64,000 nucleotides of DNA, taken from Bacteroides graminisolvens DSM 19988 = JCM 15093. GTDB taxonomy: Bacteria > Bacteroidota > Bacteroidia > Bacteroidales > Bacteroidaceae. Positions 36,072 through 47,344 of this stretch are shown piece by piece (within the stretch, counting starts at the first letter, position 1; every line of letters begins with the position of its first letter). The translations under genes were made by a program, and so were the position numbers. A model generated the notes under the pieces. It did not search any database. It saw nothing but the letters and a program-made list of their open reading frames with translations, and was not told the DNA's origin. The DNA lies in the NCBI RefSeq assembly GCF_000428125.1, contig NZ_ATZI01000001.1:620001-684000 (forward strand). Reading direction: 5' to 3'.

Positions 36072-37115
36072 TTAAACTGTGATTTCACCTGCTAGCGAGT
36101 GATTCATTCGTTCTCTGATTTCCTCGGGAGAGTATCCGTGTCCGATTAGAAACATCAGTTTAGTTACGGCCGATTCTGTGGTGCTGTCATATCCACTAAC
36201 AACCCCTGCCTGCAATAATTGGTAACCGGTATTGTAGCGTTCCATTTCCACCGTGCCGGCGTTGCATTGCGTTACGTTGACTATGACAATGCCTTTGGCG
36301 CAGGCTTCACTCAGGCACCGGATAAACCACGGTTTGCTGGGAGCATTACCCGATCCGTAAGTCTCCAGTACCAATGCTTTTAGTCCGTCGATAGCCAAGG
36401 TAGCCGCCATTACGTTTTCTTGTATGCCCGGAAAGAGTTTCAATACGGCGATGTTACTGTTGAGCCAGGTATGCACCTTTAACTGCCTGCCTTCTTCGTA
36501 TTGATGAATATGCATGCGGTGGAAACGGATATGAATACCTGCTTCGGCCAGTATGGGGTAGTTGGAAGAACGAAATGCATTGAAGTTTTCGGCATTCATC
36601 TTGGTGGTACGGTTACCACGCATCAGGTGATTTTCAAAAAAGATGCATACTTCGGGTACAATGGGATTGCCTTCGGCATCATGTGCGGCTGCAATTTCAA
36701 TGCTGGTCATTAGATTTTCTTTGCCATCCGTACGCAGTACGCCTATGGGAAGCTGTGAACCGGTGAAAATGATAGGCTTATTGAGCCCTTCCAGCATAAA
36801 ACTCAATGCCGATGCCGTATAAGCCATTGTATCCGTACCGTGAAGAATCACAAAACCGAAATAGTTGTCATAGTTCTCGCCAATGATCTGTGCCAGTTTT
36901 TTCCAGATCTCCGGGTCCATGTCGGATGAGTCCATAGGAGGATTAAACTGCAAAGAATCGATGGTGAAATTGAGTTGTTTCAACTCAGGAATATGATGTC
37001 TGAGCTGCTCGAAGTTGAAATTTTCGAGTGCTCCGGTTTTTTCATTTTCAATCATACCGATGGTTCCACCGGTGTAAATTAGCAATACGGAAGTATTTTG
37101 TGCTTTTTCTTGCAT
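36072..37115 (-). CDS. ansA: Type I L-asparaginase
   Basis: The 347-residue enzyme hydrolyses asparagine to aspartate and ammonia in the cytoplasm. Both catalytic threonine motifs are present: IYTGGTIGM near the N-terminus and VILHGTDTMAYTASALSFML. There is no signal peptide, which favours the cytoplasmic type I (AnsA) over periplasmic type II. A − strand -7 element TATATTTG sits at 37138-37145. It is divergent from the threonine operon, which begins from aspartate. Confidence 0.95.
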   Translation of the reverse strand: MQEKAQNTSVLLIYTGGTIGMIENEKTGALENFNFEQLRHHIPELKQLNFTIDSLQFNPPMDSSDMDPEIWKKLAQIIGENYDNYFGFVILHGTDTMAYTASALSFMLEGLNKPIIFTGSQLPIGVLRTDGKENLMTSIEIAAAHDAEGNPIVPEVCIFFENHLMRGNRTTKMNAENFNAFRSSNYPILAEAGIHIRFHRMHIHQYEEGRQLKVHTWLNSNIAVLKLFPGIQENVMAATLAIDGLKALVLETYGSGNAPSKPWFIRCLSEACAKGIVIVNVTQCNAGTVEMERYNTGYQLLQAGVVSGYDSTTESAVTKLMFLIGHGYSPEEIRERMNHSLAGEITV

Positions 37116-37238
37116 AATTGTACTGTTTTCTGGCTTGCAAATATAGTATTATTCTTGTTATTAATGACATTTTGTAAAGCTAAAATTATTTTATAAGAAA
37201 AATAAGGCAAAAAGTTATAAATTGATTGTTTTTATTCT

Positions 37239-37463
37239 TACTTTTGCAACACTTATCAAAAACGATAATAGAAACAAAGAGAATGGTTCATTACTATCCA
37301 CATACAACCACATCCATGTGCACCACAACCCTTAGGGGTTAGGGATAGTATTTGTGTTTCTACGTGATACACGCTTGCAATAGCAGGCAATTTCAATAAA
37401 TCTTATTTTAATCGTCATTGAATTTCCTTTTGAGGGAATTAGTGTACTTAAATTAGCATCTTC
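37239..37463 (+). promoter_or_regulatory. Promoter and leader (attenuator) region of the threonine operon
   Basis: TACTTTTG (37239-37246) is a TAnnTTTG element, so transcription should start near 37253 and leave a ~210-base leader. The leader encodes a Thr-rich peptide (37283-37342). At the peptide stop lies AACCC-TTAG-GGGTT (a small hairpin), and downstream AATTTCC-TTTTGA-GGGAATT forms another. I cannot draw a full terminator/antiterminator pair by eye, but the Thr-codon clusters imply translation-coupled control. Confidence 0.65.
37283..37342 (+). CDS. Threonine-rich leader peptide of the thr operon
   Basis: An ATG at 37283 gives the 19-residue peptide MVHYYPHTTTSMCTTTLRG, then TAG. Six of 19 residues are threonine in two runs of three (ACA ACC ACA and ACC ACA ACC), separated by SMC. 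This is the hallmark of an attenuation leader: ribosomes stall at Thr codons when charged tRNA-Thr is scarce. It sits between a promoter element and thrA, 121 bases before the thrA start. It is analogous to, but not homologous in sequence with, enteric ThrL. Confidence 0.85.
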   Translation: MVHYYPHTTTSMCTTTLRG

Positions 37464-39899
37464 ATGAAAGTAATGAAATTCGGCGGAACATCCGTAGGTT
37501 CCGTGAACAGCATTTTAAGCGTAAAGAAAATAGTAGAGGCAGCAGAAGAGCCTGTAATCGTGATCGTTTCAGCATTGGGTGGTGTGACCGACCAATTAAT
37601 CAATACTTCTAAAATGGCTTCTGCCGGTGATTCTCGTTATGAAGGAGAGTTCCGCGAAATTGTATTCCGCCATGTGGAAATGATAAAAGCCGTTATTCCG
37701 TCCGGAGAGCAGCAGCAGGATTTGCAGCGCCGTGTGGGTGAACTTCTTAATGAATTAAAAGATATCTTTCAGGGTATCTACCTTATAAAAGACCTCTCTC
37801 CGAAAACTTCTGATATGATTGTCAGCTACGGTGAGAGGCTTTCTTCTATTATAGTGGCAGCATTAATTCAGGATGCGGTATGGTTTGATTCGCGTAGCTT
37901 CGTTAAAACCGAAAGAAAACATGCACGACACATGCTTGATGCGGAACTTACCAATAAATTGATTAAAGAAACGTTTAAAGTATTACCCAACGTGTCATTG
38001 GTTCCCGGCTTTATCTCGTCCGACAAGGTGACTGGTGATGTAACTAACTTAGGACGTGGAGGTTCTGATTATACGGCTGCTATCATTGCTGCTGCGCTTG
38101 ACGCTTCGGGTCTGGAGATATGGACAGACGTTGACGGCTTCATGACTGCCGACCCTCGCGTGATCAGTACTGCCTATACAATAACCGAACTGAGTTATGT
38201 GGAGGCAACCGAACTGTGTAACTTCGGAGCCAAAGTGGTTTATCCACCAACAATTTATCCGGTTTGTCACAAAAACATTCCTATTCTGATAAAGAATACA
38301 TTCAACCCCGAAGCAGTTGGTACTATCATCAAACAACAAGTGAGCAGTCCGCTAGGTAAGGCCATTAAGGGTATTTCTTCCATTAACGATACAAGTCTTA
38401 TTACTGTGCAAGGCTTGGGAATGGTTGGAGTGATCGGTGTAAACTATCGCATCTTCAAAGTTCTCGCAAAGAGTGGAATCAGTGTGTTTCTGGTATCTCA
38501 GGCCTCTTCGGAGAATAGTACCTCTATCGGTGTGCGAAATGCCGATGCCGATTTAGCTTGTGAGGTATTAAACGAAGAGTTTGCCAAAGAAATTGAAATG
38601 GGCGAAATTGGTCACGTATGCGCTGAGAAAGATTTGGCTACCGTAGCCATTGTCGGTGAGAATATGAAACACACCCCCGGTATTGCGGGTAAACTATTTG
38701 GTACGTTAGGACGTAACGGTATCAATGTGATTGCTTGTGCACAAGGAGCCTCGGAAACCAATATTTCGTTCGTAGTCGAATCCAAATCGCTGCGCAAATC
38801 ACTGAATGTGATTCATGATTCTTTTTTCCTTTCCGAATATCAGGTTTTGAACCTGTTTATCTGTGGAATAGGTACTGTAGGTGATAGTCTTATCGAACAA
38901 ATACGTTGCCAGCAACAGAAGTTGATGCAGGAAAACGGGTTGAAACTGAATGTGGTGGGTATAGCCAATAGTTCATTTGCTATGTTTCGCCGAGAAGGGC
39001 TAGACCTTTCCAATTATCGTGTTGAACTGAAAGAGAAGGGTATCAAGAACTCTCCCAAGATATTTCACGATGAGGTGATAAAAATGAATATTTTCAATTC
39101 GGTATTTGTTGATTGTACGGCTAATGCTGAAGTTGCAGCTTTATACAAAGACTTCCTGCAACACAATATATCGGTGGTGGCTGCTAATAAAATTGCGGCT
39201 TCTTCGAAATATGACAATTACCGTGAACTTAAGCAAGTGGCACGTCACAGGGGAGTAAAGTTCCTTTTCGAAACCAATGTGGGAGCCGGATTGCCTATTA
39301 TCAATACGATCAATGATTTAATCAATAGCGGTGATAAAATATTAAAGATTGAGGCGGTTCTTTCGGGTACACTCAACTACATCTTTAATAAGATCAGTGC
39401 TGATATTCCTTTCAGCAAAGCCATTCAGATGGCGAAAGAAGAAGGCTACTCCGAACCCGATCCCCGCATTGATTTGAGCGGTAAAGATGTTATTCGCAAA
39501 TTAGTGATCTTAGGGCGTGAGGCGGGTTATCGTTTGGAACAGGAGGATGTGGAAAAACACCTGTTTGTACCTGCCGAATATTTTGAAGGCTCGCTGGATG
39601 ACTTTTGGAAACGGGTTTCCACGCTTGACGCCAACTTTGAAGCACAACGCAAGTTGCTTGAAAGCGAGAAGAAACATTGGTGTTTCGTAGCCCGTTTGGA
39701 AGATGGCAAAGCGTCTGTTGGTTTGCAGGAAGTCGATGCTTCTCATCCGTTCTACGGACTGGAGGGAAGCAACAACATCATCTTACTGACAACGGAAAGA
39801 TATAAAGAATATCCGATGATGATTCGCGGATATGGTGCCGGTGCAGGCGTTACAGCGGCCGGCGTATTTGCAGATATTATGAGTATAGCTAATGTTTAA
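37464..39899 (+). CDS. thrA: Bifunctional aspartokinase / homoserine dehydrogenase
   Basis: The 811-residue fusion carries aspartokinase (MKVMKFGGTSVGS at the start; two ACT regulatory domains at about 310-450) and homoserine dehydrogenase (NAD-binding CGIGTVGDSL near 467; AANKIAASSKYDNY; catalytic region EGYSEPDPRIDLSG). It performs the first and third steps from aspartate to threonine and methionine. It is the first gene of a thr operon with a Thr-rich leader. The ACT domains suggest feedback control by threonine. Confidence 0.97.
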   Translation: MKVMKFGGTSVGSVNSILSVKKIVEAAEEPVIVIVSALGGVTDQLINTSKMASAGDSRYEGEFREIVFRHVEMIKAVIPSGEQQQDLQRRVGELLNELKDIFQGIYLIKDLSPKTSDMIVSYGERLSSIIVAALIQDAVWFDSRSFVKTERKHARHMLDAELTNKLIKETFKVLPNVSLVPGFISSDKVTGDVTNLGRGGSDYTAAIIAAALDASGLEIWTDVDGFMTADPRVISTAYTITELSYVEATELCNFGAKVVYPPTIYPVCHKNIPILIKNTFNPEAVGTIIKQQVSSPLGKAIKGISSINDTSLITVQGLGMVGVIGVNYRIFKVLAKSGISVFLVSQASSENSTSIGVRNADADLACEVLNEEFAKEIEMGEIGHVCAEKDLATVAIVGENMKHTPGIAGKLFGTLGRNGINVIACAQGASETNISFVVESKSLRKSLNVIHDSFFLSEYQVLNLFICGIGTVGDSLIEQIRCQQQKLMQENGLKLNVVGIANSSFAMFRREGLDLSNYRVELKEKGIKNSPKIFHDEVIKMNIFNSVFVDCTANAEVAALYKDFLQHNISVVAANKIAASSKYDNYRELKQVARHRGVKFLFETNVGAGLPIINTINDLINSGDKILKIEAVLSGTLNYIFNKISADIPFSKAIQMAKEEGYSEPDPRIDLSGKDVIRKLVILGREAGYRLEQEDVEKHLFVPAEYFEGSLDDFWKRVSTLDANFEAQRKLLESEKKHWCFVARLEDGKASVGLQEVDASHPFYGLEGSNNIILLTTERYKEYPMMIRGYGAGAGVTAAGVFADIMSIANV

Positions 39900-41121
39900 T
39901 GAGATGAAACATATTATTATATTGGGAGATGGCATGGCCGACTGGCCTGTGAAGTCTCTGGGAGACAAGACGCTCCTGCAATATGCGAAGACGCCTTATA
40001 TGGACATGCTCGCCCGGATGGGACGCAACGGTAGGCTGCAAACCGTAGCCGATGGCTTCCATCCGGGCAGCGAAGTGGCTAACTTATCAGTTCTGGGTTA
40101 CAACCTGCCTAAAGTGTACGAGGGCAGGGGAGCACTTGAAGCGGCAAGTATTGGTATTGATCTCAAACCGGGAGAGATGGCCATGCGCTGTAACCTGATC
40201 TGCATAGATGGAGAGGTTATTAAAAACCACTCTTCCGGTCATATTTCGACGGAAGAGGCTGATGTGCTTATTCAATATTTGCAGGAAGAGTTGGGGAGTG
40301 ACAAGGTGTGCTTTCATACCGGAGTCTCTTACAGGCATCTATTGGTTATCAAAGGTGGAAATAAGCAGTTAGACTGCACACCGCCTCATGATGTGCCGTT
40401 GCAACCGTTCCGCCCGCTACTGGTAAAACCTTTGCAGGCAGAGGCTGAAGATACGGCTTCGTTGATTAACGAGCTGATCTTGAAGTCTCAGGAACTTTTG
40501 AAAAGCCACCCGATCAACCAGAAACGAATAGCGGATGGCAAGGATCCGGCTAACAGTATCTGGCCATGGTCGCCGGGTTACCGTCCTCAAATGGAAACAT
40601 TGTCGGACACTTTTCCCGGTATAAAGTCGGGAGCGGTTATCTCGGCGGTCGACCTGATTCGGGGGATTGGTTATTATGCCGGACTTCGCCGATTGGAGGT
40701 AGAAGGGGCAACCGGTTTGTACGATACAAACTACGAAAACAAAGTGGCTGCTGCACTGGATGCTTTGAAAAAGGACGACTTTGTTTATCTTCACATTGAG
40801 GCCAGTGATGAGGCCGGCCACGAAGGAGATGTGGACTTGAAAATTAAAACGATTGAGAATTTGGATAGTCGGGCAGTCGGACCCATTTACGAAGCTGTTA
40901 AAGACTGGGATGAACCTGTTGTGATTGCCGTCTTACCCGATCACCCTACTCCCTGCGAACTTAGAACACACACTAAAGATCCGATTCCTTTCTTGATTTG
41001 GTATCCGGGAATTGAAGCCGACAGCGTGCAGACTTATGATGAAGTGGCTGCTTGTGAAGGAAGCTACGGATTGTTGAAGGAGGATGAATTTATGAAAACG
41101 TTTATGCTTGCAAACAAATAA
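39892..41121 (+). CDS. Phosphoglycerate-mutase-like homoserine kinase of the thr operon
   Basis: The 409-residue protein belongs to the archaeal-type cofactor-independent phosphoglycerate mutase family (alkaline phosphatase superfamily): metal site IIILGDGMADWP, PGSEVANLSVLGYN with the nucleophile Ser, GRGALEAASIG, and C-terminal ADHPTP-like PDHPTPCELRTHT. Between thrA and thrC the missing activity is homoserine kinase; I recall genetic evidence from B. thetaiotaomicron that the homologue performs it. No GHMP-type thrB is present here. A start at 39904 (MKHIIILG) is as likely as 39892; the latter overlaps thrA by eight bases. Confidence 0.85.
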   Translation: MFNEMKHIIILGDGMADWPVKSLGDKTLLQYAKTPYMDMLARMGRNGRLQTVADGFHPGSEVANLSVLGYNLPKVYEGRGALEAASIGIDLKPGEMAMRCNLICIDGEVIKNHSSGHISTEEADVLIQYLQEELGSDKVCFHTGVSYRHLLVIKGGNKQLDCTPPHDVPLQPFRPLLVKPLQAEAEDTASLINELILKSQELLKSHPINQKRIADGKDPANSIWPWSPGYRPQMETLSDTFPGIKSGAVISAVDLIRGIGYYAGLRRLEVEGATGLYDTNYENKVAAALDALKKDDFVYLHIEASDEAGHEGDVDLKIKTIENLDSRAVGPIYEAVKDWDEPVVIAVLPDHPTPCELRTHTKDPIPFLIWYPGIEADSVQTYDEVAACEGSYGLLKEDEFMKTFMLANK

Positions 41122-41126
41122 CAGCT

Positions 41127-42434
41127 ATGAAATATTACAGTACAAATAAACAAAGTCAGTCGGTTTCCTTGCAAGAAGCGGTAGTGAAAGGATTGGCTTC
41201 AGACCGCGGACTTTTCATGCCCGAAGCGATCAAAGCTCTTCCATCAAGTTTCTACGATCACATTGAAGACCTGTCTTTTCAGGAGATAGCCTATCGTGTA
41301 GCTGATGCCTTTTTTGGTGAAGACATTCCGGCAGACACATTGAAGGACATTGTGTACGATACGCTCAATTTTGATGTTCCTTTGGTGAAGGTGGAAGAAA
41401 ACATCTATTCGCTTGAGTTGTTTCACGGACCCACTCTTGCTTTCAAGGATGTTGGCGGTCGTTTTATGGCCCGGTTATTGAGCTACTTTATCCGCAAAGA
41501 AGGTCAGAAAGATGTGAACGTATTGGTTGCCACTTCGGGAGATACCGGCAGTGCAGTGGCTAATGGCTTCCTCGGTGTAGAAGGCATTCACGTTTACGTG
41601 CTTTACCCCAAAGGAAAAGTAAGTGAAATACAAGAGAAGCAGTTTACTACATTGGGACAAAATATCACTGCTCTGGAAGTTGACGGTACGTTTGACGATT
41701 GCCAGGCACTGGTGAAATCGGCTTTTATGGATAAAGAACTGAACGATCACTTGTTGCTTACCTCGGCCAACTCCATCAATGTGGCTCGCTTCCTACCGCA
41801 GGCATTCTACTATTTCTATGCTTATGCGCAACTGAAAAAGATGGGACAAGCAGACAATAAAAAGGTTGTGGTATGTGTGCCAAGTGGTAACTTTGGTAAT
41901 ATTACGGCCGGCTTGTTTGGAAAGCAGATGGGCTTGCCTGTGTCTCGCTTCATTGCAGCCAACAACAAGAACGATATATTCTACCAGTATCTGCAAACCG
42001 GAAAATACAACCCTCGTCCGTCGGTTGCTACGATAGCCAATGCAATGGATGTGGGTGATCCCAGTAACTTTGCTCGTGTACTCGATCTGTATCAAGAATC
42101 TCACGAAGCTATCTGCCGTGATATTTCGGGAACCACCTATACTGATGAGCAAATTCGTGAAACGGTGAAAACCACTTATCTGCAAACGGGTTATTTACTT
42201 GATCCGCACGGAGCATGTGGCTTCCGTGCTTTGAAAGAGGGATTAAAGGAAGGAGAAGTCGGCGTATTTCTGGAAACAGCTCATCCGGCCAAGTTCCTTG
42301 AAACAGTAGAGGACATCATTGCCGACAAGGTAACTATTCCCGCCAAGTTGCAGGAATTTATGAAAGGAGAAAAGCAAAGCTTGCCGTTGAGTAAAGAATT
42401 TGCAGATTTTAAAGCTTATTTATTGAAACTTTAA
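41127..42434 (+). CDS. thrC: Threonine synthase
   Basis: The 435-residue PLP enzyme converts O-phosphohomoserine to threonine. The PLP lysine is K107 in FHGPTLAFKDVGGRF, with the phosphate-binding ATSGDTGSAVANGFLG loop and VPSGNFGNITAGLFGKQMG. The N-terminal YYSTNKQSQSVSLQEAV matches the family. It starts five bases after the preceding stop, and the operon terminator follows at 42456-42491. Confidence 0.97.
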   Translation: MKYYSTNKQSQSVSLQEAVVKGLASDRGLFMPEAIKALPSSFYDHIEDLSFQEIAYRVADAFFGEDIPADTLKDIVYDTLNFDVPLVKVEENIYSLELFHGPTLAFKDVGGRFMARLLSYFIRKEGQKDVNVLVATSGDTGSAVANGFLGVEGIHVYVLYPKGKVSEIQEKQFTTLGQNITALEVDGTFDDCQALVKSAFMDKELNDHLLLTSANSINVARFLPQAFYYFYAYAQLKKMGQADNKKVVVCVPSGNFGNITAGLFGKQMGLPVSRFIAANNKNDIFYQYLQTGKYNPRPSVATIANAMDVGDPSNFARVLDLYQESHEAICRDISGTTYTDEQIRETVKTTYLQTGYLLDPHGACGFRALKEGLKEGEVGVFLETAHPAKFLETVEDIIADKVTIPAKLQEFMKGEKQSLPLSKEFADFKAYLLKL

Positions 42435-47147: not shown

Positions 47148-47194
47148 TTTAAATAAAAAATTAAATTAAACAGAAAAGGGGACTTTTCTATTTT

Positions 47195-47267
47195 ATCCCT
47201 CCGCCGGCATTATCCGGATCAGGTTAATGGGTATGATCTCAGCCCGTTTTATTAAGGCACCCCTCTT
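47195..47267 (-). promoter_or_regulatory. TPP riboswitch (THI element)
   Basis: On the − strand the sequence reads GGGGTGCC, then GGGCTGAGATCATACCC, AACCTGATCCGGATAATGCC and GGCGGAGGGA, the conserved parts of the thiamine pyrophosphate aptamer. It sits about 50 bases before the receptor gene. A promoter element TACTTTTG lies upstream at 47282-47289. TPP binding should lower expression of the uptake operon. Confidence 0.97.
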
Positions 47268-47344
47268 ATTGAAATCTACTGCAAAAGTAACGCTTTTAAG
47301 TTAGAATGGTTCTATGTAACTGCAATTTTAACGATTCAACATCC

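Follow-up and report, generated by a model that had tools for sequence, protein, structure and literature searches.

A probable leader-peptide attenuator with threonine and methionine codons ahead of the thr operon of Bacteroides graminisolvens and its relatives

We analysed a stretch of 64,000 nucleotides from the Bacteroides graminisolvens genome (the window, whose positions are used below) and focused on the leader that separates thrA, which starts at 37464, from a divergently oriented type I asparaginase gene. Behind this leader the operon runs in the order thrA, an ApgM-type gene proposed to encode homoserine kinase, and thrC (Table 1). The genome encodes a second aspartate kinase, so that lysine synthesis need not depend on ThrA, and Lys is infrequent in the leaders, at 1.7%. 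A first-pass annotation had placed a promoter element before thrA. This assignment holds: in the 110 nt ahead of the leader ATG, 68 of 70 leaders contain the motif TAnnTTTG, which we take to be the Bacteroidota-type -7 consensus, compared with 8.4% of base-shuffled stretches.

Table 1. Features of the thr leader and its neighbourhood, in window positions.
Feature	Position	Strand	Remark
Type I asparaginase gene, divergent	36072-37115	-	TIGR00519, 328.5 bits
Promoter -7 element TAnnTTTG, TACTTTTG	37239-37246	+	Bacteroidota type
Candidate antiterminator UAGAAACA in the 5' UTR, complementary to UGUUUCUA (37355-37362) of T1	37269-37276	+	
Leader ORF MVHYYPHTTTSMCTTTLRG-stop	37283-37342	+	19 codons, stop TAG
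P1 5' arm UACUAUCC, codons 4-6, pairs with 37343-37350	37292-37299	+	swap tests
Sensing codons: Thr 8-10, Met 12, Thr 14-16	37304-37330	+	Thr-Thr-Thr twice
P0 stop-codon hairpin ACCC-UUAG-GGGU (37328-37331/37336-37339)	37328-37339	+	
P1 3' arm GGAUAGUA, directly 3' of the stop codon	37343-37350	+	swap tests
T1 hairpin GUGUUUC-UACGU-GAUACAC	37354-37372	+	alignment A1, covariation
T2 hairpin GCUUGC-AAUA-GCAGGC, abuts T1	37373-37388	+	covariation
Tail after T2, AAUUUCAAUAAAUCU, weak U tract in B. graminisolvens	37389-37415	+	
Hairpin AAUUUCC/GGGAAUU, ends 23 nt before thrA	37421-37440	+	fold
thrA, bifunctional aspartate kinase/homoserine dehydrogenase I	37464-39899	+	NF006959, 1044.5 bits (cut-off 726)
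Proposed homoserine kinase, ApgM-like	39892-41121	+	TIGR02535, 587.7 bits (cut-off 446.3)
thrC, threonine synthase	41127-42434	+	TIGR00260, 310.4 bits (cut-off 167.1)

For comparison we gathered thrA upstream regions from 80 loci and then 30 more, 109 of the 110 being anchored on thrA. Leaving out L111 (unmatched) and five duplicate leaders gave 104 distinct regions, of which 52 were used as carriers of the T1 hairpin; the remainder include most Prevotella-named or rumen loci, Tannerellaceae and Alistipes. The later-added loci raised the number of leader ORFs, with L159, L162 and L164-L166 left out, at least four of them being repeats of other leaders. The upstream region of thrA in Phocaeicola coprocola (L024) has neither leader nor T1, unlike its relatives.

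The same annotation had read a 19-codon ORF with two Thr-Thr-Thr runs in the B. graminisolvens leader, and both runs are present as described. Furthermore, the Thr codons, whose conservation among relatives it had put forward as a check, are conserved across 58 thrA leaders (56 distinct peptides), and in their own frame only. Of the 1195 internal codons in frame, 26.8% are Thr and 14.4% Met, and in the two other frames of the same leaders Thr falls to 4.3 and 3.2% and Met (ATG) to 0.3 and 0.4%. All four Thr codons are in use (132 ACA, 131 ACC, 34 ACT and 23 ACG), which indicates that the amino acid is kept and not a nucleotide string. An internal Met is found in every one of the 58 thrA leaders, and at least three Thr in 57 of them as well as in all 15 thrC-type leaders, which stand before an ApgM-like gene and thrC without thrA. 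Thr is the most frequent residue in both leader classes. Beyond the Thr and Met content and an end constrained by the RNA, the remainder of the peptide is variable.

Because the ORF starts were set by rule or by hand, we repeated the count on the 12 codons that precede the LRG or PRG (xRG) end. Thr accounts for 34.4% of these codons in the thrA leaders and Met is present in 57 of 58 (the exception is L093); Met occupies 131 of 694 codon positions, versus 0 of 180 in the thrC-type leaders. The hand-set cases were four unparsed leaders (L007, L021, L152 and L153), one misparsed leader (L025) and the starts of every thrC-type ORF, and three leaders without a T1 anchor (L033, L161 and L163) were included in the counts. 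One leader, L031, is Thr-free in the counted stretch from its chosen start. Two loci read by eye and left uncounted (L181 and L183) are without Met before the LRG end, L183 having one Met after LRG. Seven further thrA leaders without T1, six from Tannerellaceae and one from Coprobacter, carry 2-4 Thr and 1-2 Met each; they were selected because an ORF was visible, and L077 (Tannerella) showed none. Collectively, the locus has what is expected of a ribosome-mediated attenuator in its coding part: a short ORF rich in end-product codons upstream of a biosynthetic operon, with those codons found in frame among relatives and in one frame only.

Next we consider the RNA around this ORF. The first-pass annotation had described hairpins before thrA, and three of them (P0, T1 and T2) are present and covary across relatives, while the single-sequence fold of the leader is modest (z -1.9, with 12 of 200 shuffles as good). 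The alignment used, A1, holds 52 rows, of which 50 were picked by the motif TCTACG[TC]G and two (L002 and L033) were placed by hand. Over P0, T1 and T2 together, 81.1% of 816 cells are paired and 62 cells are changed on both sides; such changes occur at 10 of the 17 pairs. None of 500 shuffles scored as high on these measures, and controls with slid helices had at most 53.8% of cells paired. Further pair types, one of the five covariation measures, were not above shuffles (448 of 500), and RNAalifold alone keeps 7 pairs on A1. The P0 hairpin at the stop codon is paired in 94.8% of cells (48 distinct rows), three of its four pairs being invariant, and T2 is paired in 70.5% of cells with five of six pairs changed on both sides. 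The T2 stem is found in 40 of 70 leaders and T1 only in the other 30. Covariation scoring on a MAFFT alignment was abandoned as too noisy, 56 of its top 60 column pairs being unpaired.

A further helix, P1, joins the beginning of the ORF to the sequence directly behind its stop codon, and it was the only element that segment swapping picked out clearly. In 39 non-redundant leaders, own arms win 68% of comparisons with swapped arms on average and beat more than half of them in 30 leaders (Wilcoxon p 1.5e-4), nine leaders showing no advantage. The longest uninterrupted helix measures 8.4 pairs with own arms versus 6.8 with swapped ones. The hairpin just ahead of thrA is not conserved in sequence, as judged by eye among relatives.

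All but one of the 52 rows of A1 have the T1 loop CUACGYG (window 37360-37366), a constancy that is partly by construction since 50 rows were picked by motif, the stems being unselected. The loop is more constant than a terminator loop requires, and no partner was found for it. Used as a genome-wide motif, T1 has one match in the B. graminisolvens genome with up to 3 mismatches, which is its own place, and a reversed control pattern also gave one.

We then described the distribution of the element using a covariance model, R1, made of the stop-codon hairpin and T1/T2. R1 matches 51 of 201 Bacteroidaceae genomes, in single copy each and in 11 of 30 genera, and 150 have no match at E 0.01. By coordinates, the element lies before thrA in 42 of the 51 genomes and before an apgM-like gene and thrC in nine. 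Four weak matches elsewhere in the order (E 0.010-0.041) were taken as chance, as their 3-kb loci contain no thr-operon motif.

The nine thrC-type genomes belong to genera g20, g12 and g26, where further R1 searches found matches in 12 of 44, 3 of 19 and 1 of 1 genomes, respectively. A ThrA-type match is present in all nine, with best E values from 4e-102 to 5e-129; in the three genomes for which its place is given (G067, G020 and G130), it is on another contig. The 15 thrC-type leaders, from 14 genomes and with 14 distinct peptides (for example MINNTLHIITTGTGTTTTLRG and MDYISTYNTLTRLLSTTVTTVTTTTLRG), contain 34.2% Thr among 424 codons and no Met. Homoserine produced by ThrA goes into Met as well as Thr, and the two final steps are for Thr (and Ile), so that Met codons at thrA leaders only are what such wiring would give. 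Accordingly, the codon content tracks the branch of the pathway, and this supports a ribosome that senses Thr plus Met. On the ApgM tree there are three changes of thrA/thrC context and three of Met state; ten repeated loci were labelled 'none' on this tree, and the count of context changes, repeated without them, was again three. A test by independent pairs was uninformative, with three pairs on the best tree and one on the well-supported (starred) branches, so that the way in which the Met contrast follows context is suggestive and falls short of statistical proof.

Upstream of the separate thrA of five g20 genomes, three of which have the element at apgM, the T1 motif is absent from the last 300 nt. 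Small ORFs with at least three Thr are found there in two of the five. In G020 a 15-residue ORF (L186) with four Thr and no Met lies 61 nt before thrA; it may be a leader of another kind and may also be chance. In G130 two overlapping Thr ORFs resemble the end of the preceding gene. Two of the 44 g20 genomes have two R1 matches, all four before the apgM-like gene; these are G454 and G475 (L172, L179, L178 and L180), possibly mixed or duplicated assemblies, in which the leader-apgM locus occurs twice per assembly and L180 repeats L178.

Whether the leader contains a terminator and a competing fold was approached in several ways. No terminator-like site was called in 36900-37800. Across 70 leaders, the U fraction in the 15 nt after the last hairpin is 0.47 where T2 is present and 0.42 where there is T1 only, versus 0.28 in the leader, and the stop codon starts a median of 15 nt before T1. 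The candidate antiterminator in the 5' UTR pairs with T1 at -8.7 versus -5.3 kcal/mol for shuffled sequences in 25 leaders of fewer than 24 residues, and no excess over shuffled was found in 30 longer and 7 thrC-type leaders. These groups, which we call Bacteroides-like (<24 residues) and Phocaeicola-like (≥24), are defined by length and not by taxonomy. No compensatory changes were seen between the 5' UTR strand and T1. A general capture of T1 by upstream RNA was dropped, being above shuffled in only 33 of 55 thrA and 8 of 15 thrC-type leaders.

We also folded the leaders with a ribosome footprint masked, assuming that P1 can form around a stalled ribosome. For a ribosome at the stop codon versus one at a late stall, the predicted probability of T1 was 0.53 and 0.33 in the 25 short leaders, 0.80 and 0.64 in the 30 longer ones, and 0.63 and 0.54 in the 7 thrC-type ones. 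An early stall gave 0.42, 0.67 and 0.57, and no ribosome 0.30, 0.63 and 0.54, so that an early stall does not lower T1. In these models the contrast between stop and late stall thus has the right sign for attenuation, and the early-stall values do not help. The first-pass annotation had made mutually exclusive structures a requirement of its proposal; the folding suggests such structures as candidates in the short, Bacteroides-like leaders, where they come without compensatory changes, and the idea did not carry over to the longer and thrC-type leaders.

The element differs from known systems. Rfam searches of 37200-37500 (E up to 10) returned no cis-regulatory family, RF00506 Thr_leader and T-box included, and neither did searches of six related loci (E up to 5). 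At gathering score the window as a whole contains two tRNAs and a TPP riboswitch (47179-47274, minus strand, RF00059, 57 bits), all outside the leader. Like enterobacterial thrL (RF00506), the leader has a short Thr-rich ORF before thrA and hairpins before the first gene, in the same pathway. It departs from thrL in having a helix from the ORF start to the sequence behind the stop, together with the conserved T1 hairpin, and in having Met as second residue at thrA instead of Ile, which we take to be the second residue of E. coli thrL.

The B. graminisolvens genome has two more leaders of this general kind. A his leader before hisG (L190, 1204-1248 of C10) encodes the peptide MRYTTTHHHHSPGE and is followed by a strong hairpin and a U run; an ilv leader before ilvD on the reverse strand (L191, C5) encodes MITSTSINLSLLDIISVVVVPSRA and is followed by a strong terminator-like hairpin. 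Both peptides likewise stand ahead of their operon and contain repeats of an amino acid that it makes (HHHH and VVVV), and both have strong hairpins and U runs, unlike the thr leader. These leaders with their terminator hairpins indicate that leader-peptide control is in wider use in B. graminisolvens. Upstream of chorismate-binding genes, the filter noticed no leader of the kind sought.

Attenuators were reportedly predicted in Bacteroidetes/Chlorobi, and for threonine, by Vitreschak et al. in 2004. They are thus not unheard of in Bacteroidetes, and a Flavobacterium transcriptome gives clues for them in the portions of that paper available to us (PMC9723704). As far as the accessible text of PMC9723704 and PMC7366714 goes, the leaders described there are likewise short ORFs, located ahead of amino-acid operons or within long 5' UTRs, and no thr leader, Met codons or RNA element of this type is described. 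In the open literature, as accessible in part (including PMC9723704, PMC7366714, PMC2965389, PMC4833913, PMC1262725 and PMC3766115), we found no description of a Bacteroidota thr leader or of a Thr plus Met leader; Vitreschak 2004 or Lopatovskaya 2010 may list a Bacteroides one.

We hypothesize that the leader works as follows. RNA polymerase would start near 37250 and yield a leader with the short ORF. With charged Thr-tRNA or Met-tRNA in short supply, the ribosome would stall on the Thr and Met codons between the P1 arms, and a stall at the late Thr codons would leave the P1 3' arm free. When Thr and Met are both plentiful, the ribosome would reach the UAG, where its footprint, given the usual size of a ribosome footprint, should cover the P1 3' arm. 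The ribosome position would then select between P1, together with the 5' UTR strand capturing T1 in Bacteroides-like leaders, and T1/T2, and this choice would decide transcription into thrA, presumably by termination and in the direction described. The peptide would read Thr and Met because ThrA feeds both, and Thr without Met where only homoserine kinase and threonine synthase are controlled.

The first-pass observation is borne out, and more strongly than it was put. We consider that this is probably a real leader-peptide attenuator, and control of this kind outside Proteobacteria, as the first-pass annotation had proposed, is well supported by the in-frame Thr codons and the covarying helices. 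That the peptide senses Thr alone, as was then supposed, does not fit the codon counts: Met, which the annotation overlooked, is equally regular in the 58 thrA leaders. A threonine-only attenuator in which the Met codons are incidental, through RNA pairing or nested starts, would agree with Thr being the commonest residue in both leader classes, and control of thr in E. coli uses Thr and Ile. Such an attenuator would have to explain 131 Met in 694 late codons of thrA leaders versus 0 of 180 at thrC-type ones, out-of-frame ATG at 0.3-0.4%, and Met in the seven thrA leaders whose downstream RNA is of another kind, and we regard it as rather unlikely.

Another reading is that there is no terminator, and that the ORF and T1/T2 affect translation of thrA or decay of the RNA, or that the T1 loop binds a protein. 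The uncalled terminator, the weak U tract in the window, the extra hairpin just ahead of thrA and the T1 loop CUACGYG, kept in 51 of 52 aligned leaders (50 of them motif-picked), all lean this way. It is opposed by the U enrichment behind the last hairpin (0.42-0.47 versus 0.28), by the 75 nt between the end of T2 and the thrA start, which is far for direct occlusion, and by the ordinary terminator hairpins of the his and ilv leaders in the same genome, and on balance we see it as a lesser but real contender. That the ORF encodes a small functional protein, or arose by chance, would suit its shortness, and many Prevotella-type thrA leaders are without it; however, Thr, Met and the RNA-constrained end are kept while other residues vary and the enrichment is frame-specific, which makes this explanation barely credible.

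The in-frame codons, the split between Thr plus Met and Thr only, the conservation of P0 and the covariation of P1, T1 and T2 are directly supported. From these we favour, with reasonable though limited confidence, a cis-acting attenuator of the thr operon in which the ribosome senses Thr and Met. We are evenly divided on the fuller proposal of a two-input attenuator, in which a single peptide senses Thr and Met as the two end products of the homoserine branch, and Thr without Met at Thr-only operons, through a P1/T1/T2 element of Bacteroidaceae that lies outside Rfam and whose CUACGYG loop meets a partner. If the two-input reading is true, the wiring of the pathway can be read off the codon content, the variation of leader codons with the genes controlled being a natural experiment. 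A dominant gut lineage thereby gains a well-defined regulatory leader whose input (Thr plus Met) can be tested, along with an RNA model, absent from Rfam, that is useful to annotate thr operons; the conserved hairpin loop raises the question of its role.

Finally, six of the Tannerellaceae thrA leaders without T1 (L035, L039, L045, L047, L056 and L065) share a common peptide core, for example YYTWALMTPWG, and this conserved core could reflect nascent-chain arrest.
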